From NCBI RefSeq assembly GCF_030123105.1, contig NZ_CP126095.1, positions 3,348,001-3,412,000 of the forward strand: 64,000 nt of DNA, given 5' to 3'. Both the position numbers and the translations under genes were made by a program. Positions 7,185 to 29,504 of the stretch are shown here, piece by piece (within the stretch, counting starts at the first letter, position 1; each line of letters begins with the position of its first letter). The notes under the pieces are model-generated. The model was not told where the DNA came from and made no database searches. It was given only the letters and a program-made list of their open reading frames with translations. The DNA comes from Paenibacillus sp. G2S3. Its GTDB lineage: Bacteria; Bacillota; Bacilli; Paenibacillales; Paenibacillaceae.

Positions 7185-7667
7185 CTACTGTCTTTTTCCA
7201 TGGAATTGTCGATGAAGTTCCCGTACTTGTTCTGCTAGCTCCGGTACAGGGCCATCTAAGACCGCATTATGGATAACTTCCTGAATGGTCAAAGTACGGA
7301 CGGGTGATGCTGCAATGCCCATTTCGCTTAACCACAGTGATAATTGCTGCGAAGAGCTCGCATAAACAATTCGTCCTAATTGAACCCAACCGTGAGCTGC
7401 TGCACACATAGGACAATGCTCTCCCGAAGTATATACAGTTGCCTTATTACGTTCTGCCGGTGTCATATTCTGAGCCGCCCAGCGGGCCAAAGCAAATTCC
7501 GGGTGCTGAGTATGATCACCACCGCCTACATGGTTGCGGTCTTCGGCCAAGACTTCTCCGTTTGCTGCAACCAGGATGGAGCCGAAAGGCTCGTCTCCAG
7601 CGTCAAGAGCAATTCTGGCAAGTTCAATACAGCGCTGAAGATGTTTGATATCCGTATCGTTGATCAT
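7185..7667 (-). CDS. Nucleoside/guanine deaminase-family protein
   Basis: This protein of about 160 residues belongs to the zinc-dependent cytidine/deoxycytidylate deaminase superfamily, closest in layout to guanine deaminase and TadA-like nucleoside deaminases. The HPE motif (His55, catalytic Glu57) and CPMC (Cys85, Cys88) supply the zinc site. Two departures from the common pattern are HPE instead of HAE and SGEHCPMC instead of TxEPCPMC, so the substrate is uncertain. I chose ATG 7667 (MINDTD), about 10 bases after GGAGG, rather than the longer frame to 7715, whose N-terminus looks like untranslated leader. It is a single-gene unit. Confidence 0.82.
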   Translation of the reverse strand: MINDTDIKHLQRCIELARIALDAGDEPFGSILVAANGEVLAEDRNHVGGGDHTQHPEFALARWAAQNMTPAERNKATVYTSGEHCPMCAAAHGWVQLGRIVYASSSQQLSLWLSEMGIAASPVRTLTIQEVIHNAVLDGPVPELAEQVRELHRQFHGKRQ

Positions 7668-7818
7668 AATGATAGAGCCTCCTTTGTTTAAATTATCGAA
7701 AAATAGAGTCAACAAGTAGAACTGACCCTGTTTGTTCGCTGCATTCTTCTATGTTAGCATGTAAAGTATTCGATTAAAAATATGTCATGCAATTTCAAAA
7801 TAGGGAGGACATCTAGAA

Positions 7819-8268
7819 ATGAAACACCCATTTATATTAAATGCCGTATGGAACGGCGGTCGTAATAGTGATGGAACGATTGAAGCCGGACAGCTCAAGG
7901 CACAAATCTCCATTCCGAAGGAAATGGGCGGGCCCGGAGTTGGAACGAATCCAGATGAGATGCTTCTGGGCGCAGCAGCAACCTGCTATCTCATTACACT
8001 TGCAGCCATGCTGGAGCGATCTGAGCTTATAACTTCAAATCTGACCTTAACATCAGAGGCGACGGTGGATGTAACGAATAACATTTTTACATATGAAGCG
8101 ATTAAACATTCACCTATAATCACTCTTTCTAAAGACGCGTCACAGGACGATATCGATAAAGCTATTCGTATTGCCCATAAAGCAGAAGGCTCTTGCATGA
8201 TCTCCAGAGCTGTAGCAGGAAACGTACAAATCACTACAGAGCCAACAGTACTGACAGCAAGTATGTAA
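7819..8268 (+). CDS. OsmC/Ohr-family peroxide-detoxifying protein
   Basis: This 149-residue protein has the two redox cysteines of the family, Cys56 in GAAATCYLIT and Cys126 in EGSCMISRA. It also has the GTNPDEMLLGA motif before the first Cys and the long central helix. Family members reduce organic hydroperoxides with thiols in the cytoplasm. It resembles the SACOL1771-type OsmC subgroup of Firmicutes more than Ohr; that subgroup assignment is by impression. GGGAGGA precedes the ATG. The next gene starts 56 bases later on the same strand with its own ribosome binding site. Confidence 0.88.
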   Translation: MKHPFILNAVWNGGRNSDGTIEAGQLKAQISIPKEMGGPGVGTNPDEMLLGAAATCYLITLAAMLERSELITSNLTLTSEATVDVTNNIFTYEAIKHSPIITLSKDASQDDIDKAIRIAHKAEGSCMISRAVAGNVQITTEPTVLTASM

Positions 8269-21275: not shown

Positions 21276-21327
21276 TTGACACGACACCATTTGGTGTCCT
21301 ATAATCAATATGACACTAAATGGTGTC
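21276..21327 (+). promoter_or_regulatory. Promoter with two GACACCA-type operators (ArsR autoregulation)
   Basis: TTGACA (21276-21281) and TATAAT (21300-21305) are 18 bp apart. The spacer holds the palindrome GACACCATTTGGTGTC (21283-21298; perfect 7-bp arms). A second copy, GACACTAAATGGTGTC (21312-21327, one arm mismatch), lies 29 bp downstream over the start region. Two phased dimer sites across the promoter fit repression by the ArsR protein encoded just downstream. Confidence 0.85.
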
Positions 21328-21395: not shown

Positions 21396-21719
21396 TTGAA
21401 CGATAATAGTCAAGTGAGGGATGTATATGACGCTGTTGCAGATCAAACAAGGCGAAAATTACTTCAAATCCTGGCTGATGTTGATGAATTACCCCTACAT
21501 GAAATCACGGTTCATTTTGATATGGGCCGTACTGCAGTTTCTAAGCACTTGTCTATTCTTAAAGAGGCTGATCTTGTAGTTGCTCGAAAGGTTGGTAGAG
21601 AAACGAGGTATCGTTTAAATGCCAATCCATTGAAAGAAATTCGGGATTGGGTATCTTTTTACGAAGGCTTTTGGAAAGAAAGAATCGATAAACTAAAACT
21701 TTTATTGGAGGAAGAATAA
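21396..21719 (+). CDS. ArsR-family regulator (SdpR-like)
   Basis: This winged-helix repressor of about 107 residues reads VYDAVADQTRRKLLQILADVDELPLHEI, then the recognition helix region MGRTAVSKHLSILKEADLV and the wing ARKVGRETRYRLN. It has no metal-binding cysteines, as in SdpR/YvbA-like members paired with SRPBCC proteins. TTG 21396 is preferred to GTG 21384, because the latter lies within the purine-rich GGTGGGGGTGG ribosome binding site. It overlaps the AHSA1 gene by one base, forming a two-gene operon under the paired operators. The signal it senses is unknown. Confidence 0.88.
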   Translation: MNDNSQVRDVYDAVADQTRRKLLQILADVDELPLHEITVHFDMGRTAVSKHLSILKEADLVVARKVGRETRYRLNANPLKEIRDWVSFYEGFWKERIDKLKLLLEEE

Positions 21720-22135
21720 TGAAACCAGATGTATCCTTAGATTATCAATTTACAAGCTCCATCGAGAAGGTATGGAACGCTTTGACGGATTCAGATACAC
21801 TCGCGAAATGGATTTGGAGCAATGACTTTAAACCAGTCGTAGGGCATAAATTTCAATTTCGTGCAGAGCCAAATGAATGGTGGGATGGTATTGTGAATTG
21901 CGAGGTTCTCGTAGTAGACGAGCCACATACATTATCCTATACTTGGCATAGTGCTGGAGAAGGCACTACGGTTACTTGGACTTTGAGCAAAGAGGAAGAT
22001 GGTAAGGTTCATCTGCATCTTGGTCAATCTGGATTTAGTGAAGAGACCAAAGCTCGCCAAGGCGCTATCGAGGGTGCTAAGTATGCTTGGGCGAATATGG
22101 GCAGTCAGCTTGAAAAAGTATTAGCAGAACTTTAA
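21719..22135 (+). CDS. SRPBCC/AHSA1-domain protein
   Basis: This 138-residue START-like fold protein has SLDYQFTSSIEKVWNALTDSDTLAKW at its N-terminus and a C-terminal long helix (ARQGAIEGAKYAWANMGSQLEKVL) with the Trp typical of the AHSA1 family. Such domains bind hydrophobic ligands in a deep cavity; in Firmicutes they are commonly paired with a small ArsR repressor, as here. Its start ATG overlaps the TAA of the ArsR gene by one base. Ligand unknown. Confidence 0.87.
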   Translation: MKPDVSLDYQFTSSIEKVWNALTDSDTLAKWIWSNDFKPVVGHKFQFRAEPNEWWDGIVNCEVLVVDEPHTLSYTWHSAGEGTTVTWTLSKEEDGKVHLHLGQSGFSEETKARQGAIEGAKYAWANMGSQLEKVLAEL

Positions 22136-22145
22136 ATTCAAGAAT

Positions 22146-22180
22146 AGGGCGCTTTTCTGAAAATGGAAAGTGCCCTTTTT
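22146..22180 (+). terminator. Terminator after ArsR-AHSA1 operon
   Basis: AGGGCGCTTTTC and GGAAAGTGCCCT pair around a seven-base loop, followed by T5. Confidence 0.85.
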
Positions 22181-22237: not shown

Positions 22238-25200
22238 ATGAAAATAAACCGATTAATTGCGAACAATATTAATAAGCTAGATGCAGTATTACCTGTAGAT
22301 CAATCCCTGGGGATTGCTGGTTTATCCGGATCTGGTAAAACAACTTTTTGTCAAACCATCGGCGAAGAATCCAAGAAACGTCTCGTTTCTTTATTGCCAA
22401 AGGCAGAATATCAGTATTTATTCCCTAATATTATGGAAACTAATTTCAGTGCGATCCTGATGGAAGAAATGCCACTTGTTCTTTTTCTAGGGAGATCATC
22501 CATTTCATCCAATCCTCGGTCAACCATTGGCACACATACGGGTGTGTTCACAGAGATTCGTGTTGCGATTGCTGAACAATATAACCTATCGCCAGAGGTT
22601 TTTTCATTTAATAATGAATTAGGCTGGTGTCCAGATTGTAAAGGTCGCGGCACTACTAAAAATGTCGAATGCAAAAAGTGTAAGGGCAAGCGCTATAATC
22701 ACGAAACTGAACAATACAAAATGGAGTTATTGGATCAAGACATGAGTATTTCCGATATCAACGACTTAAGTGTTGAAACCATTTTATCACTAGCAGAAGT
22801 TCTGAAAATTAGTGAGGGTAAACAAAACATTCTAAAAAACATAATCCATATGAATATTGGTTATTTAACCTTAAATCGCATTATGGGTACCTTGTCAGGT
22901 GGAGAGTTAACACGTCTTTACTTAGCAGAATTTATGGCAACTAGTGAGAATACAGTCATTATCATTGACGAAATCTCTGTGGGTCTGGATCACCAAACCC
23001 TTTTGAAAATATTAGAACAAATTAGACAACTAGGATTTAAAAATCAAATTTGGCTCATTGATCATTCAGATACGGTATTAGACATAACGGACGAGCAATT
23101 GTTCTTTGGACCAGGTAGTGGTAAATACGGCGGGAAAATCGTTGAAGAATCGCCACGACCTAGGCCGATCAATGGTGAAATAAATCAAGCAGCTCCCACA
23201 GAATATTATCATTTTCAAGATCTTTACTGTCGTAATATTCAAATGGCTGAACTTCAGATTCCCCGTAATAGACTTGTAACGTTTACTGGTGAATCTGGCT
23301 GTGGTAAATCCACACTGGTCAATGAGTGTATGTCCAAAGATTTTGTGAAGCGATATCCCAAGGATAAGCTGGTCATCGTAGGGCAAGATCGAAATCAATC
23401 GATTACTAGTAGATCTACGGTTGCGACTTTTCTTGATATTAAAAGAAAGCTCACAAAATATAGTGAAGAGATTGATGATATTTTCCAGCGCTCGATTGAA
23501 GATATTATTGAAGAACTGCCAAATGAAGACATCGCTCATAAACGCTTAAGTTTATTGATCAAGCTTGGGCTGGGTTATTTAACGTTGGAAAGAAAAACAC
23601 AGTCTTTATCCACAGGTGAATTTCAATGTGTTCATTTAGTCTCCGAGCTATTTGCAGGTTCAAGAAACCCCAATACACTTTTCATTTTTGACGAGCCTTC
23701 CAAAGGGTTATCACAAAATATTCTAAATCAATTCATTGATAGCATTAGAGTCATTCTTCAGGATGTATCTGTCTCCATTATGATGATTGAACATAACTCC
23801 TATATGCTGGAAAACTCTGATTTTATCGTTGATTTTGGCAAAAGGCAGCTTGAACCGGTGGAGCAACTCGATGTTGTTAGCCATGAAGATTATTATCGTC
23901 AACAAAACAGTGAAGATCATGTCACCCCATTACAGATTTCTTCAACACTGCGTCAACAAAAAGGCATTAACTATTTAAAAGAAGATCATATTCCTTATTT
24001 TAAAAATGCGGAAAACGTCTATAAAGGTGGCATCTTAAAAAGCTTATCCTCTATGGCACGTTTGATTTATGGTGAATACGAATCGGATACCATTGCACCT
24101 GTCATTGCCATTGATCTGGAGCGGCACTTGTACAGCCAATATACTTTTCTCTATGAAATTGGAGGCTTGATCAACCATATTGTAACGGCGCATCCAACTA
24201 ATAAAGATACCAGTAGCTTCGATTTCTATTATCAAGACAATCATTGTCCATGCTGTAAGGGACGTCGAGTCATTGAGAAATTTGATTTTGAAGTTGTTCT
24301 TCAGGACAAAAATGTACCGTTTTGGGATGGCTTATTGCATCCAGATGCGATGGATATTCTGAAGTTCTATCAATTCCCCAAAATAAAATTTATCTTTGAA
24401 GAGATTAAGAATGAACTCGGTCAAGATATCAGTAAGAGTTATAATGAGCTGACGGATGCAGAAAAGCATACTTTTTGGTATGGGTATTGGGAGAAGTCAT
24501 TTTATGATAAAGCAAGCAAAGCAACGAGGACTTGGGAAGGCTTTAATTACATTATTGGGAACTACATGGTGATATCGAAAGCAATCATTAAAGAGCATAT
24601 TAAACAGTCCAAAATAATGATTACCTGTCCAATCTGTGAAGGAACCGTACTAAATCATCATAAAAAGCTAAAATTTGGTGACACAGATATTCGTGAGATC
24701 ATTGGACAACCTCTTGATCAAGTGATTAGTACCGTTGGCTCATTACAGGTGCTTGAAAAAATGAAAGCCATTGTCGGCGGCAATAGGGTTCTAACAGAGG
24801 ATGTCTCTCTATTGCCAAGGGAAACTCAAGCTGCTCTGAAAATGCTTGAACTAGAGCTGGCAAGCTTTGCGCACTATGAAATGGTATTGCAAAATGCTCT
24901 GCCATTCTGGGACAAGATTAGTAGTAGCGTTGAATCCATAAGCATTAATAATCAAATCACGATTTGTGATTTTGAGAATATCACTGAAACCAGAGACAAC
25001 ATCATTGATAAGTATTTCACGAATGGAAAATACAAAAAGCTGACCTATGTCTACGAAGCGTTTGGATACAAAAAGCTGATCACTTTAATTAATAAGATAA
25101 AAGCTAGTCAGCCATGTCCATTCTGTAAAGGAAAGAAAGTCATATCAGAAGATGGACTCCATGATGGAGTTTATAAGTTAACGATTCCATGTGTAAGCTG

Positions 25201-25405
25201 CTATGCTAGTGGTATTAATGATGAAGGTCGTAAGGAAATCGTCGAGGGCATCGACGTACAAACTTGGCTAACAGGCAATGTAAGTGATGTTATGTCTGAA
25301 AGCTCAAATATTGAGGCTGTAGCAGATATTCCAATCTTCAATCGTATTCGGGAGTTGAATAAACAAGAAATGATGGCCGTTTATCAATACCTTGAGAATA
25401 ATTAG
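22238..25405 (+). CDS. UvrA-like ABC ATPase with a novel cysteine-rich C-terminal half
   Basis: This 1055-residue soluble protein has two ABC modules laid out as in UvrA. Module 1 has Walker A GLSGSGKTT (28-36), a zinc finger with Cys131/134 and Cys145/148, signature LSGGE (219-223) and Walker B IIIDE (241-245). Module 2 has Walker A GESGCGKST (351-359), signature LSTGE (457-461) and Walker B FIFDEPS (483-489). Only about 97 residues separate Walker A1 from the zinc finger, against about 220 in E. coli UvrA, so the UvrB-binding domain appears missing. Residues about 590-1055 match no family I know and hold CxxC pairs at 670/673, 797/800, 960/963 and 985/988. It is probably not classical repair; UvrA-like drug-resistance proteins are one comparison. 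It is a single-gene unit, and the start has only a distant GGAG. Confidence 0.8.
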   Translation: MKINRLIANNINKLDAVLPVDQSLGIAGLSGSGKTTFCQTIGEESKKRLVSLLPKAEYQYLFPNIMETNFSAILMEEMPLVLFLGRSSISSNPRSTIGTHTGVFTEIRVAIAEQYNLSPEVFSFNNELGWCPDCKGRGTTKNVECKKCKGKRYNHETEQYKMELLDQDMSISDINDLSVETILSLAEVLKISEGKQNILKNIIHMNIGYLTLNRIMGTLSGGELTRLYLAEFMATSENTVIIIDEISVGLDHQTLLKILEQIRQLGFKNQIWLIDHSDTVLDITDEQLFFGPGSGKYGGKIVEESPRPRPINGEINQAAPTEYYHFQDLYCRNIQMAELQIPRNRLVTFTGESGCGKSTLVNECMSKDFVKRYPKDKLVIVGQDRNQSITSRSTVATFLDIKRKLTKYSEEIDDIFQRSIEDIIEELPNEDIAHKRLSLLIKLGLGYLTLERKTQSLSTGEFQCVHLVSELFAGSRNPNTLFIFDEPSKGLSQNILNQFIDSIRVILQDVSVSIMMIEHNSYMLENSDFIVDFGKRQLEPVEQLDVVSHEDYYRQQNSEDHVTPLQISSTLRQQKGINYLKEDHIPYFKNAENVYKGGILKSLSSMARLIYGEYESDTIAPVIAIDLERHLYSQYTFLYEIGGLINHIVTAHPTNKDTSSFDFYYQDNHCPCCKGRRVIEKFDFEVVLQDKNVPFWDGLLHPDAMDILKFYQFPKIKFIFEEIKNELGQDISKSYNELTDAEKHTFWYGYWEKSFYDKASKATRTWEGFNYIIGNYMVISKAIIKEHIKQSKIMITCPICEGTVLNHHKKLKFGDTDIREIIGQPLDQVISTVGSLQVLEKMKAIVGGNRVLTEDVSLLPRETQAALKMLELELASFAHYEMVLQNALPFWDKISSSVESISINNQITICDFENITETRDNIIDKYFTNGKYKKLTYVYEAFGYKKLITLINKIKASQPCPFCKGKKVISEDGLHDGVYKLTIPCVSCYASGINDEGRKEIVEGIDVQTWLTGNVSDVMSESSNIEAVADIPIFNRIRELNKQEMMAVYQYLENN

Positions 25406-25416
25406 CTAACCTAATG

Positions 25417-25441
25417 AAACCGCGCATAGCGCGGTTTTTTT
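25417..25441 (+). terminator. Terminator after the UvrA-like gene
   Basis: AAACCGCGC-ATA-GCGCGGTTT is a perfect nine-base-pair stem with a tight loop, continuing into a T-run. Confidence 0.93.
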
Positions 25442-25600: not shown

Positions 25601-26968
25601 ATGGTTATATCCAAACGTTTCTGCCACTCAGGCATTTTTAGAGTAATGATGTTATTCAGCTTTATATTAATAATCACGACCTACAGTGGGAGTGGGAGCG
25701 CTAGTGCAAATACAAATTCGGAAGCGGTTCCACTCCAGCCGATTATTAATGCAGCCCAAATCGGAGATTCAATTACTTTAGCTCCAGGTACTTATCTCGG
25801 CCCGGTTTATATTAACAAAAGACTGACGATAAGCGGGGAAGGTAGGGCGACACTATTAAATTCATCTCCCGATGCTGAGGATGCAGTTATGATTCAGGCG
25901 GATGGGGTAAAGCTTCAAGGACTTAATATACAGCAGGATAACGGGGGAGAAGCAGCAGCGATTCGGGTGGAAGCCGATCAGGTGACTTTGAAAGATTTAG
26001 TCATACATACATTTGGCTTTGGCATTATGCTACGTGAGGCTGATAGTGGAGTTGTAGTAAACAATAAGATCCGTTGGTTTATACCTAAAGGTGCTGCTCC
26101 GGGAAAAAGAGGTAATGGCATCGATCTCTATAACTCTCATGGTTCAGATATCAGAGAGAATGAAATCTCTTATCTCCGAGATGGCATTTATTTAGAGAAG
26201 AGTCGCAATACAAAGGTTGATCACAATCGGCTCTATCATTTGCGATACGGTGTTCACTGTATGTATATCAATGGATCATCTGTAACGAACAATATTGGAG
26301 AATACAACATCACTGGCGCGATGGTGATGGGAGTGAGCGACGTTATGGTATCAGGAAACTCTTTTCGTAAACAAAATCAGAATGTTCATTCTCAAGGAAT
26401 CCTGCTCTTTGACGTTCGTACCTCTCAGATTGTAAATAACGTCGTGGAAGGAAATCGGGTAGGAATCTATATGCAACAATCCTCCGATAACACTCTCCAG
26501 AATAATATGGTGCTCCGAAATTATATTGGGATTCAATTTGAGGGCTCTGAAGGTAACCGCTTTCAGAAGAATTCTTTTATTGCAAATGTGATTGAAGCAC
26601 AGGCAACGGATTCCAAGAATAATAAGATGACGAGAAATTTTTGGGATTCATTCGAAGGTCTGGATGTATCGGGTGATGGCGTAAGTGATCTGCCATATGC
26701 TATTAATCCATTTTATCAGCAATTAGTTACAGAAAATGCTGCTTATCAGCTCTTTTTTCAATCACCAGGCATGACGTTTTTAAGCGATCTGTATACAAAT
26801 GATAAAGAACAATGGTCCACTGATCCAGAGCCACTTATGCAATTGGATTCAGTTCATGCAAATGTTGGACAAGTGAGTGAGGGGCAAGGGTCAGTAATGG
26901 TGGTGGGTTGGCTGCTTTTGTTTTTCTCTGTGATCACAATACTATATATGGGGGTATTAAGGTTATGA
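25601..26968 (+). CDS. nosD: NosD, periplasmic-type copper-site maturation protein for nitrous oxide reductase
   Basis: This 455-residue exported protein has a signal/anchor sequence at about 12-37. A right-handed parallel beta-helix follows, made of CASH/NosD repeats (for example NNKIRW, ENEISYLRDGIYLEKS, NNVVEGNRVGIYMQQSSDNTLQNN). A C-terminal membrane helix (about 430-453, VVGWLLLFFSVITILYMG) anchors it. NosD works with the NosFY ABC transporter to supply sulfur for the CuZ centre of nitrous oxide reductase. AAGGGGGTG precedes the ATG, and the stop overlaps nosL by four bases. The identification is strong because nosL, nosY and nosF follow directly, although nosZ itself is absent from the window. 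Confidence 0.9.
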   Translation: MVISKRFCHSGIFRVMMLFSFILIITTYSGSGSASANTNSEAVPLQPIINAAQIGDSITLAPGTYLGPVYINKRLTISGEGRATLLNSSPDAEDAVMIQADGVKLQGLNIQQDNGGEAAAIRVEADQVTLKDLVIHTFGFGIMLREADSGVVVNNKIRWFIPKGAAPGKRGNGIDLYNSHGSDIRENEISYLRDGIYLEKSRNTKVDHNRLYHLRYGVHCMYINGSSVTNNIGEYNITGAMVMGVSDVMVSGNSFRKQNQNVHSQGILLFDVRTSQIVNNVVEGNRVGIYMQQSSDNTLQNNMVLRNYIGIQFEGSEGNRFQKNSFIANVIEAQATDSKNNKMTRNFWDSFEGLDVSGDGVSDLPYAINPFYQQLVTENAAYQLFFQSPGMTFLSDLYTNDKEQWSTDPEPLMQLDSVHANVGQVSEGQGSVMVVGWLLLFFSVITILYMGVLRL

Positions 26969-27444
26969 AAAAATGGAGTTTAGTACTGATGATGATGATG
27001 GGTTTGTTAATTCTGGCGGCTTGTGGCCCCAAAAAGTTTGAACCGTTAGCGATTAATGAAAAAGTTGATATTTGCGCGATTTGCAATATGCAGATTAAGG
27101 ACGATGCTTTTGCTACACAACTAACAACAAAAGACGGGAAGAATTATAAGTTTGATGATATTGGTTGTATGAATGAATGGAAGAACAAGAATGGAACCAA
27201 AAACATCGGAATGGACTATGTCCGTGACTATAATGACAAAGAATGGGTAGAATTCAGTAAGGCCAGCTTTGTCTATGATGAGACACTACGCACACCTATG
27301 GCTTATGGAGTTATCAGCTTCAAAGACACTGCTTCAGCCGAAGCTTTTGTGAAGGAACAAGGTGTTGGCAGCGTTCTGTCAGCAAATGATCTGTCCAAGC
27401 ATGAATGGAAACAAAATACGGATATGATGCAAATGGATATGTGA
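26965..27444 (+). CDS. nosL: NosL, copper-binding lipoprotein
   Basis: This lipoprotein of about 159 residues has a lipobox LILAAC with lipidated Cys20, then the NosL copper motif DICAICNMQIKDDAFATQ (Cys and Met ligands). The conserved FDDIGCMNEW and VRDYNDKEW segments follow. NosL delivers Cu(I) to apo-NosZ on the outer face of the membrane. ATG 26965 overlaps the nosD stop (ATGA), which supports this start over longer frames. It is part of the continuous nosDLYF unit. Confidence 0.93.
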   Translation: MKKWSLVLMMMMGLLILAACGPKKFEPLAINEKVDICAICNMQIKDDAFATQLTTKDGKNYKFDDIGCMNEWKNKNGTKNIGMDYVRDYNDKEWVEFSKASFVYDETLRTPMAYGVISFKDTASAEAFVKEQGVGSVLSANDLSKHEWKQNTDMMQMDM

Positions 27445-27446
27445 TA

Positions 27447-28268
27447 ATGGTTGATATCCTGCAAGTCGCACGCAGAGAGATTAAAATGGGTTTTCGGAAT
27501 CCATGGGCTTATTCTTTTTTGGCATTATTTTGTGCGTTTAGTCTAGGCTTACTGCTGATTAATGCACAAAATGAGATTCAAGGGTATACCGCAGTTACAG
27601 GTTCTATGCTAAGTCTGATTTTGTATCTGCTGCCGCTTATGACCTTATTTCTAGGCTCTTTTTCACTGACTTCAGAGAAGGAAGAGGGTAGCTGGCAGCT
27701 TTTATCTACTTATCCAATAGGAACGTTCTCATTTATTCTTGGCAAGTATGTGGGTCTAGCTGTCGTACTACTTACGGTTGTGGCTTTCGGCTATGGTTTA
27801 ATGGGAATGATGAGTGGATTCATGGGCATGGCCTATGATTCTACTACTTACTTTCTTTTTTTGTTTTTTTCCGCAGGACTTGTTTTATTATTCTTGACCA
27901 TTGCTTTGTTTATCGGTTCATTATCACGTAACCGCTGGCAGGCGCTGACTGTTTCTGTTGCTGTGTGGTTTTTCACAGTAATAGGTTGGCCGACCTTTTT
28001 AATCGCCTTCTTAGGTTTAATGCCTTATCTCTGGATTAAGCCCTTGCTGGTCGCATTCACAATACTCAACCCAGCAGAGCTTGTTCGGTTATTCGTTGTA
28101 ATTAAGCTGGGCGGAGGTTCAGTGCTGGGACCTGAATATTACCAATGGGTAGAATGGATAAATGGTTCGAAGGGTAGCTTGTTGATTATGGGAGTCTGTC
28201 TAGTCTGGATGTTGAGCTCGATCCTGTTTGTATATTGGATATGGGAAAGGGGGCGCTCTCGTGGATAA
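27447..28268 (+). CDS. nosY: NosY-type ABC transporter permease
   Basis: This membrane protein of about 273 residues has six likely transmembrane segments (beginning near 20-40, 55-75, 105-125, 140-165, 170-195 and 245-265). The cytoplasmic start REIKMGFRNPWAYSF and the loop TSEKEEGSWQLLSTYP are typical of NosY/ABC-2 permeases. With NosF it forms the transporter that moves a sulfur species to NosD. ATG 27447 lies two bases after the nosL stop. Its 3' end overlaps nosF by eight bases. Confidence 0.9.
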   Translation: MVDILQVARREIKMGFRNPWAYSFLALFCAFSLGLLLINAQNEIQGYTAVTGSMLSLILYLLPLMTLFLGSFSLTSEKEEGSWQLLSTYPIGTFSFILGKYVGLAVVLLTVVAFGYGLMGMMSGFMGMAYDSTTYFLFLFFSAGLVLLFLTIALFIGSLSRNRWQALTVSVAVWFFTVIGWPTFLIAFLGLMPYLWIKPLLVAFTILNPAELVRLFVVIKLGGGSVLGPEYYQWVEWINGSKGSLLIMGVCLVWMLSSILFVYWIWERGRSRG

Positions 28269-28980
28269 CCCCTTAGTGAATGTAAAAGGAATCTCAAAGG
28301 TTATTAAAAAGCAAACAATAGTTGAAGAGATTAGCTTTCAAATCCCCAGTGGGAGCATACTTGCACTATGTGGCGGTAACGGGGCTGGCAAAAGTACCGT
28401 TTTGCGAATGGTTGCGGGTATTCTACAGCCTTCGATGGGCGAAATCTCAGTGGGTGGCTTATACTGGCACAAATCACGCAAACAATTCTCGAAACAAATT
28501 GGATATATGCCGGATGATTATCAATTCAATCAGGGGCTGTCGGCAGAGGAAGCTCTAACTTTTTGGGCAGCTCTCCGTAGGGTACCCAATCGCAAAGCGA
28601 GAGTCAACGAAGTCCTTGCCTTAGTTGGTCTAGAAGATAAACGAAATCGTCTGGTCAACACCTTTTCAAAGGGAATGCGTCAGCGTATCTTATTTGCACA
28701 GGCCTTGCTCGCCAAACCTTCGTTGCTAATTATGGACGAACCCACAAACGGTCTTGACCCTTTCTGGATGAATGAATTCGTAGACCTACTCCAAAGAATC
28801 AAGGAAGAAGGGCATAGCGTTATTTTCTCCACACACCAGTTAGAAATCGCTGATAAGATCGCAGATCAGATTGTCTTTCTAAGTCATGGAAGAAATGTTG
28901 GTTCAGGTCCTACCAAAGAATTTCATGCGAAATTTGGTTCTCTGTATACAGCCTTTAATCATAGTCTGGGTCTGAAATGA
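28261..28980 (+). CDS. nosF: NosF-type ABC transporter ATPase
   Basis: This ATPase of about 239 residues has Walker A GGNGAGKST near residue 37, signature FSKGMRQR, Walker B LLIMDEPTNGLD, and the switch His in IFSTHQLEIADK. It pairs with the NosY permease just upstream. GTG 28261 is eight bases before the end of nosY and follows AAAGGGGG by about 7 bases; a longer frame from 28228 would start deep in nosY. The TGA overlaps the ATG of the thioredoxin-like gene. Confidence 0.92.
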   Translation: MDNPLVNVKGISKVIKKQTIVEEISFQIPSGSILALCGGNGAGKSTVLRMVAGILQPSMGEISVGGLYWHKSRKQFSKQIGYMPDDYQFNQGLSAEEALTFWAALRRVPNRKARVNEVLALVGLEDKRNRLVNTFSKGMRQRILFAQALLAKPSLLIMDEPTNGLDPFWMNEFVDLLQRIKEEGHSVIFSTHQLEIADKIADQIVFLSHGRNVGSGPTKEFHAKFGSLYTAFNHSLGLK

Positions 28981-29504
28981 GCATGCGTCGAATCATTGCC
29001 TTACTAGTGATTATCGCAGCTGTCACGACTGTTGTATGGGTATTTAGCCATAATGAAACAAGAGATTCATCGGAGAGGATTGCAGTGGGCTCTATCGCTC
29101 CCGAATTTGAAGCTACAACTATAGAAGGCAAAAAGGTTCGTCTAAGCGATTTCCAGGGACAGATTGTGGTGCTTAACTTTTGGGCTTCCTGGTGCACGTC
29201 ATGTGTGCGAGAAATGCCCCTTCTGAATGACATTCACAAATCCACTAGTTCTCAAATTGAAACCTTGTTTATTAATGTTGGTGAGTCTAAAGGGACTGTA
29301 TCAGAATATCTTAAGGATCATAGTTTTTCTTTTCCAGTTGTCATCGATGTTACCGGAAAAATCTCTACTGCATACGGAGTTAGTGCGCTTCCTGCCACGT
29401 TTATTATAAACGGAGAGGGAAAGATCAAAGAGGCTATATTAGGCGAAATCACAGATTTCCCCTTAATGCAGCAGTGGCTGGAGGATGCCAGAAATCCTAA
29501 CTAA
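28977..29504 (+). CDS. TlpA/ResA-like membrane-anchored thioredoxin
   Basis: This 175-residue protein has an N-terminal membrane anchor (about 5-24) and an extracytoplasmic thioredoxin fold with the active site WCTSC (Cys73, Cys76) and cis-Pro region VSALPATFII. It probably keeps cysteines or copper-binding thiols reduced during maturation of the copper enzyme served by nosDLYF, as Sco/TlpA proteins do for cytochrome oxidase. The start overlaps nosF by four bases. Its stop directly abuts the stop of the convergent PocR-AraC gene, with no terminator between. Confidence 0.88.
   Translation: MSMRRIIALLVIIAAVTTVVWVFSHNETRDSSERIAVGSIAPEFEATTIEGKKVRLSDFQGQIVVLNFWASWCTSCVREMPLLNDIHKSTSSQIETLFINVGESKGTVSEYLKDHSFSFPVVIDVTGKISTAYGVSALPATFIINGEGKIKEAILGEITDFPLMQQWLEDARNPN

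Follow-up and report, generated by a model that had tools for sequence, protein, structure and literature searches.

The closest described relatives of the protein considered here are the class II UvrAs, among them Ecm16 (PDB 7SH1), DrrC and D. radiodurans UvrA2 (2VF7). These proteins have two UvrA-type nucleotide-binding domains (NBDs) and no UvrB-binding domain, and they carry an insertion domain with Zn module 2 as well as one more UvrA-type zinc site. Ecm16 is an echinomycin-resistance protein, and its description (PMC10192343) reports that its insertion domain is required for both DNA binding and resistance and that it works without UvrA, B, C or D. The same paper places the insertion domain within NBD-I and Zn module 3 within NBD-II, and has the characterised class II UvrAs, Ecm16 and DrrC, acting in resistance. 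We examined a 64,000-nucleotide stretch of the genome of Paenibacillus sp. G2S3 (assembly GCF_030123105.1, contig NZ_CP126095.1, positions 3,348,001 to 3,412,000 of the forward strand; "the window" below), which encodes a rearranged UvrA-like ATPase (P0001). Its architecture can be predicted firmly from the sequence, with the ATPase parts first and the DNA-reading parts after them, and the protein may help the bacterium to cope with DNA-binding small molecules.

Domain architecture of the rearranged UvrA-like ATPase

By alignment, residues 7-535 amount to UvrA pared down to its ATPase core: both ABC sites are intact, while the UvrB-binding and insertion domains and the zinc module of NBD-II are missing. 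This stretch is colinear with residues 12-905 of the genome's own UvrA (profile-profile comparison, E 4.9e-62 for one pair), and residues 1-305 also align with UvrA NBD-II in single-sequence searches. A motif scan recovered the Walker A, signature, Walker B and H-loop elements of both modules (Table 1) and CxxC pairs at 131, 145, 670, 797, 960 and 985, all where an earlier reading of the DNA alone (the original prediction) had put them. In an alignment of 62 sequences (A1), all 12 finger cysteines, both Walker lysines, both catalytic glutamates and both H-loop histidines are invariant in every row; A1 is a chosen set, 77-95% identical to the window's protein, drawn from 44 of the 121 proteins of our protein search (P0001 included) and 18 of the 58 loci of our contig search. 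Frameshifted or stop-bearing gene copies were excluded from alignments A1-A3.

The original prediction counted about 97 residues between Walker A1 and the first finger and concluded that the usual UvrB-binding domain is missing. We measured about 96 residues to C131, and the alignment has a gap over UvrA from about residue 117 to 258. The protein cannot recruit UvrB in the usual way, and the UvrB-independent action proposed for it is probable. The finger at 131-148, taken in the original prediction for the first zinc finger of UvrA, aligns with Zn module 2; a 10-residue loop stands in the insertion domain's usual place, so that the C134-C145 gap is 10 residues, compared with 123 between C673 and C797. 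There is no CxxC from Walker A2 to LSTGE in NBD-II, and Zn module 3 is therefore absent from this domain.

Some 465 residues of the C-terminal half had been thought unplaceable, and a match to the UvrA insertion domain had been named beforehand as the result that would settle the protein's class. Profile searches found such a match, and Pfam found it weakly. Residues 616-873 align with UvrA 230-481 (probability 98.7, profile-profile comparison), a profile built from 29 UvrA-type proteins matches residues 658-859 with 52 bits, and the family profile retrieves UvrA chains from the PDB (5.2e-6). Residues 555-1055 alone match UvrAs in genomes of the same phylum (best E 3.1e-9). The Pfam UvrA DNA-binding domain (PF17755) appears in 20/20 members at E up to 0.1, with a best value of 3e-5; on the window's copy it gives E 0.037, under its cut-off. 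When stretch 640-835 was compared with whole UvrA, the best place was 264-443 with a score of 126, against 25 for the best of 40 column shuffles; a restricted column-shuffle test also supported the match. Residues 590-1055 hold ten cysteines, and their clustering into CxxC pairs is far over the chance level, as a single shuffle out of 20,000 gave four or more pairs (mean 0.2). Three of the four C-terminal pairs have the CP.C.G pattern ascribed to all of them, while the one at 985 reads CVSC. We consider the presence of a UvrA insertion domain in this half firm on these comparisons, and likewise that of a further UvrA-type zinc site, so that the two additional zinc sites that had been proposed are both predicted to be of UvrA type. 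This half is predicted to bind zinc and DNA.

Other parts of the C-terminal half bear on a more tentative idea, that the whole of it is a decayed second copy of UvrA fused in cis, which is plausible. An island at residues 592-626 resembles the UvrA stretch after Walker A1, which is suggestive: its best local match in whole UvrA (45-88) was equalled by 20/1000 shuffles. The best profile place of stretch 575-640 is UvrA 56-89, as colinearity predicts, with 1/40 column shuffles reaching the score, and in a restricted profile test of the post-Walker-A stretch 0/60 shuffles did so. Stretch 835-945, where the signature and Walker B would lie, matched no better than shuffles (9/40 for whole UvrA, 29/60 restricted), and a motif scan and profile comparisons found no ATPase motifs in the second half. 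For stretch 945-1055 the best place in whole UvrA was 247-309 (score 36.5; best of 40 shuffles 24), and UvrA 737-785, which is Zn3, came third (29.7). One reading of all this is a single-chain asymmetric UvrA pseudodimer, in which copy one has kept both ATPases but lost its DNA-reading inserts and copy two has kept the inserts but lost its ATPases; it would be induced under ArsR-AHSA1 control when small molecules bind DNA. We regard this reading as possible but doubtful, and it is weakened because the last zinc site prefers UvrA 247-309 over Zn3 and because the post-Walker-A island is suggestive only.

Set beside the class II UvrAs, the protein has two NBDs with Walker A, signature and Walker B motifs (the second signature reading LSTGE) and no UvrB-binding domain, and it shares with them an insertion domain with Zn module 2 and one further UvrA-type zinc site; the 123 residues between C673 and C797 compare with 116 between C179 and C296 of Ecm16 (PMC10192343). 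Unlike in class II UvrAs, however, the insertion domain lies at residues 670-800, after NBD-II, with 10 residues between C134 and C145 in NBD-I, and no Zn module 3 lies inside NBD-II. Both NBDs are without the inserts of Ecm16, and a bare knuckle is left in NBD-I. As two class II layout features fail, we do not file the protein as a class II member; it probably works like one.

The canonical UvrA of nucleotide excision repair (NER; TIGR00630) shares the colinear ATPase core, the insertion domain and the UvrA-type zinc modules, but the present protein lacks the UvrB-binding domain with its Zn module 1, belongs to a separate tight family that coexists with canonical UvrA in the same genome, and scores below the cut-offs of the canonical models (251.3 bits against the equivalog cut-off of 729.8 for TIGR00630; 254.2 against 1147 for PRK00349). 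A double-length UvrA is also described (NCBIfam PRK00635, 1809 positions), which we take to be chlamydial. It would share with our protein the occurrence of UvrA-derived sequence twice per chain, if the C-terminal half is a decayed second copy, but at 1055 amino acids, with 151 bits against a cut-off of 3054 and with no ATPase motifs found in its second half, the Paenibacillus protein differs from it.

Table 1. Features of the UvrA-like gene and its surroundings (window positions; residues are those of P0001)
Feature	Position	Strand	Evidence
Sigma-70-type promoter before arsR: TTGACA, 18-base spacer, TATAAT	21276..21305	+	12/12 consensus match
Operator-like palindrome 1, GACAC-N6-GTGTC, between -35 and -10 hexamers	21283..21298	.	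Pattern counts
Operator-like palindrome 2, downstream of -10 hexamer	21312..21327	.	Pattern counts
ArsR-type winged-helix regulator, 111 aa	21384..21719	+	Pfam HTH_5 5e-10
AHSA1 (SRPBCC fold) protein, 138 aa, one-base overlap with arsR	21719..22135	+	Pfam AHSA1 4.6e-20
Terminator-like hairpin between AHSA1 gene and UvrA-like gene	22146..22176	+	12-pair stem, T tail
Rearranged UvrA-like ATPase (P0001)	22238..25405	+	ATG start, 1055 aa; UvrA-family matches
NBD-I, residues 1-305 (Walker A 28, LSGGE 219, Walker B DE 244-245, His 276)	22238..23152	+	Colinear with UvrA NBD-I
Zn module 2 knuckle without insertion domain, residues 131-148	22628..22681	+	UvrA alignment; invariant Cys
NBD-II, residues 323-540 (Walker A 351, LSTGE 457, Walker B DE 485-486, His 519), no zinc module	23204..23857	+	
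Possible island resembling the UvrA stretch that follows Walker A1 (45-88), residues 592-626, suggestive only	24011..24115	+	Local match, shuffles
Predicted second Zn module 2 carrying UvrA insertion (DNA-binding) domain, residues 670-800	24245..24637	+	Profile matches to UvrA
Predicted further UvrA-type CxxC/CxxC zinc site, residues 960-988	25115..25201	+	0/40 shuffles reach score vs whole UvrA
Terminator-like hairpin after UvrA-like gene	25416..25438	+	

The ArsR-AHSA1 pair and its sister modules

Upstream of the UvrA-like gene lie genes for an ArsR-type regulator and an AHSA1 protein. The AHSA1 fold often binds small molecules. In a survey of homologous neighbourhoods, a check suggested by the original prediction, AHSA1 is upstream in 35 of 59 loci, in 34 of them with ArsR, the one more having AHSA1 alone by the same search. 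In five Paenibacillus loci a different ArsR stands 165-170 nt downstream and is itself flanked by an AHSA1-type gene (by clustering, and by Pfam for L034), and another locus (L025) has two AHSA1 genes downstream of the UvrA-like gene. Among genomes of the same genus, a close AHSA1 (at least 84% identity) occurs in 14/15 that have the C-terminal half and in 0/85 counted as without it, one of which holds a decayed fragment; these genomes are related, and the counts are thus not independent. At one copy without the usual pair (L060), a weak polyketide-cyclase-type (SRPBCC) open reading frame (ORF) at 7415-7876 lies directly upstream.

The promoter before arsR stands out from the other 13 promoter-like sites of the scanned stretch, which score 9; the total of 14 sites does not exceed the 15.8 seen in shuffles. 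Across the 59 loci, which are related sequences, GACAC-N6-GTGTC occurs at 37 sites, against 1.06 expected at even base use. Of the 35 loci that have the pair upstream, 24 carry it close to arsR. The 24 remaining loci yield a single case, L034, where it precedes the UvrA-like gene by 134 bases. The whole Paenibacillus sp. G2S3 genome has the palindrome at three places, two of them at the arsR promoter, and a reversed control at one.

A related arrangement is seen in 13 same-genus loci that have an AHSA1 at 55-63% identity, all of which we inspected and all of which have ArsR beside it. In five of these the next gene encodes a class II UvrA of 751-760 amino acids, an Ecm16-like protein in the same slot as our protein, and in two further loci a class II UvrA follows ArsR alone. 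Four of these seven class II UvrA loci carry the palindrome. The nearest solved structure to the class II protein of L141 is Ecm16 (789 bits, compared with 645 for canonical UvrA and 542 for UvrA2), and the six remaining class II proteins share 87-91% identity with that of L141. An FAD/NAD oxidoreductase gene that may belong to the module adjoins some of these Ecm16-like loci (L141, 6763-7461, by Pfam; L144, 6462-7166, by ORF text). The Paenibacillus sp. G2S3 genome also encodes an 844-residue UvrA-like protein (L158; G000:C1:2538225-2540756) that is 36% identical to a 754-residue class II protein, and no match to this ArsR or AHSA1 was found within the 9 kb fetched around it.

Further along the window, positions 25601-29504 encode NosD, NosL, a membrane protein and an ABC ATPase that we read as NosY and NosF by position, and a thioredoxin-like protein. 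With TIGR04246, the sole NosZ model used, there was no match in the genome itself, and none over the cut-off in the control genomes either.

Distribution and transfer of the family

The protein search, which scored the 7999 candidates sharing most words, gave 4599 matches, and the best 120 of these are 82-98% identical to the rearranged UvrA-like ATPase, 1053-1071 amino acids long and aligned over the entire protein. The altered layout is therefore a trait of the whole family. The contig search gave 58 loci with the gene at 75-95% identity. The C-terminal half, at an identity of at least 73%, is present at full length in 3/398 genomes sampled from the phylum and 11/398 from the class, and in 15/100 of the same genus (one broken copy counted). 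Between the family at this level and the UvrAs at about 20-32% we found only short decayed fragments of 48-51% (G465, G842). The family is thus tight (75-98% identity) and patchy in Bacillales. It is under purifying selection, with dN/dS at 0.05-0.12 in both halves (9 of 11 pairs computable).

Trees of the family and of UvrA, built from 24 of the 58 loci and the window, differ: in the family tree, part of Paenibacillus groups with Viridibacillus, and a Psychrobacillus with Shimazuella. Paenibacillaceae as a single clade was rejected (p-AU 0.014), with the group named after the tree was seen and with L024 left out, a "Paenibacillus" that falls among Bacillaceae by its UvrA. The family has moved horizontally between genera. 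A full-length copy (78.7%) lies on a 1.44-Mb replicon of Niallia taxi listed as a plasmid (NZ_CP102590.1, 455270-458425). One record titled Arthrobacter (L062) is probably mislabelled or mixed, as the canonical UvrA of its assembly falls among Bacillota. Copies that are frameshifted, split, lengthened or fragmentary were seen at L050, L051, L052, L057, L059 and L060 and in genomes G439, G465 and G842; they reflect either repeated gene loss or errors in some of the assemblies. Four of these loci (L051, L052, L057, L059) had no intact anchor ORF and were given a default position, and L050 had a shortened anchor ORF only.

Possible function and alternative explanations

The explanation we favour, to which we give an even chance, is that of an inducible, UvrB-independent ATPase, similar to class II UvrAs, that clears or tolerates small molecules bound to DNA. 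The ArsR-AHSA1 partners and the Ecm16-like protein in the sister slot make drug tolerance our best guess, in keeping with the drug-resistance role that had been suggested. Induction of the module probably depends on ArsR, together with AHSA1, and on the palindromes at the arsR promoter: a ligand would relieve ArsR, and AHSA1 would bind or deliver that ligand. The insertion domain of the C-terminal half would sense DNA bearing a bound small molecule, such as an intercalator or similar, and this sensing would be coupled to ATP hydrolysis by the N-terminal core, which would remove or tolerate the ligand without UvrBC. Expression of the UvrA-like gene would need read-through past the hairpin at 22146-22176, or a separate promoter.

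Several observations weigh against this account. That same hairpin splits AHSA1 from the UvrA-like gene, and the two may not share a transcript; 18 of the 59 loci, L060 among them, show no ArsR-AHSA1 pair (for L026 the upstream sequence is just 273 bases long), and genome G491 also carries the gene without it. Of the 35 loci with the pair, 11 have no exact palindrome near arsR, and 8 of the 13 sister loci have no adjoining UvrA, so that the ArsR-AHSA1 pair has other uses too. As for the protein, the signature of NBD-II is non-canonical, and Pfam zinc-knuckle models outscore the UvrA domain on the C-terminal half (Lar 2e-7, DnaJ CXXCXGXG 1.5e-6). When residues 640-840 were aligned with UvrA as single sequences, the score did not stand out from shuffles (39/1000), and profiles were needed to reveal the match. 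The structure prediction that had been proposed was run as two models, both of low confidence (predicted local distance difference test, pLDDT, 60); one of them shows the helix-strand order that a remnant ABC core would have, which was not repeated in the second.

A role as a DNA repair accessory, in which the protein would recognise covalent lesions and pass them to another repair pathway or compete with UvrA, with no action on bound drugs, would suit a domain set that is that of a lesion sensor. Canonical UvrA was also present in 24/24 genomes examined, so the rearranged ATPase adds to NER and does not replace it. However, the ArsR-AHSA1 partners and the palindromes point to a chemical signal, and the sister protein is nearest to Ecm16, and we consider this role rather unlikely. 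We find it improbable that the protein is a regulator or sensor, an ATPase with a DNA-binding half acting on transcription or chromosome structure in response to the AHSA1 ligand without removing any drug. The tight link to the regulator pair and the near confinement of the palindrome to the arsR promoter within the genome would fit such a role, but the catalytic residues are invariant at both ATP sites, and resistance is what the characterised class II UvrAs serve (PMC10192343).

To an anti-phage defence ATPase we give little credence. PADLOC matches the protein to mad3 with 103 bits, but the match is unspecific because the canonical UvrA of the same genome scores 355 bits with the same model, and identity with mad3 of the MADS system was rejected. 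No defence gene was recognised by eye among the neighbouring ORFs, which were not scanned with PADLOC, and of the 16 phage records that matched, not one contains 80% of the gene. The ribosome-associated role that the original prediction had raised, as an ABC-F-type protection protein, would agree with two ABC modules in a single chain, but we hold it to be barely credible: ABC-F models reach 44-68 bits against cut-offs of at least 380 (68.2 against 380 for NF000355, 56.7 against 680 for NF000168, 46.9 against 806.75 for TIGR03719), whereas UvrA models reach 251-254, and the protein has the insertion domain and UvrA zinc modules.

In UvrA, the insertion domain is buried in NBD-I and the protein works as a homodimer, which makes it difficult to test how DNA reading is coupled to ATP hydrolysis. 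A natural chain in which the reading parts come after the motor parts makes this coupling testable by simple truncation, and, if the pseudodimer reading is true, recognition of the lesion or ligand is set apart from ATP hydrolysis inside the UvrA fold. That a module with an adjoining regulator of its own moves horizontally in Bacillales also suggests that antibiotic producers may not be alone in having UvrA-type tolerance of DNA-binding compounds.

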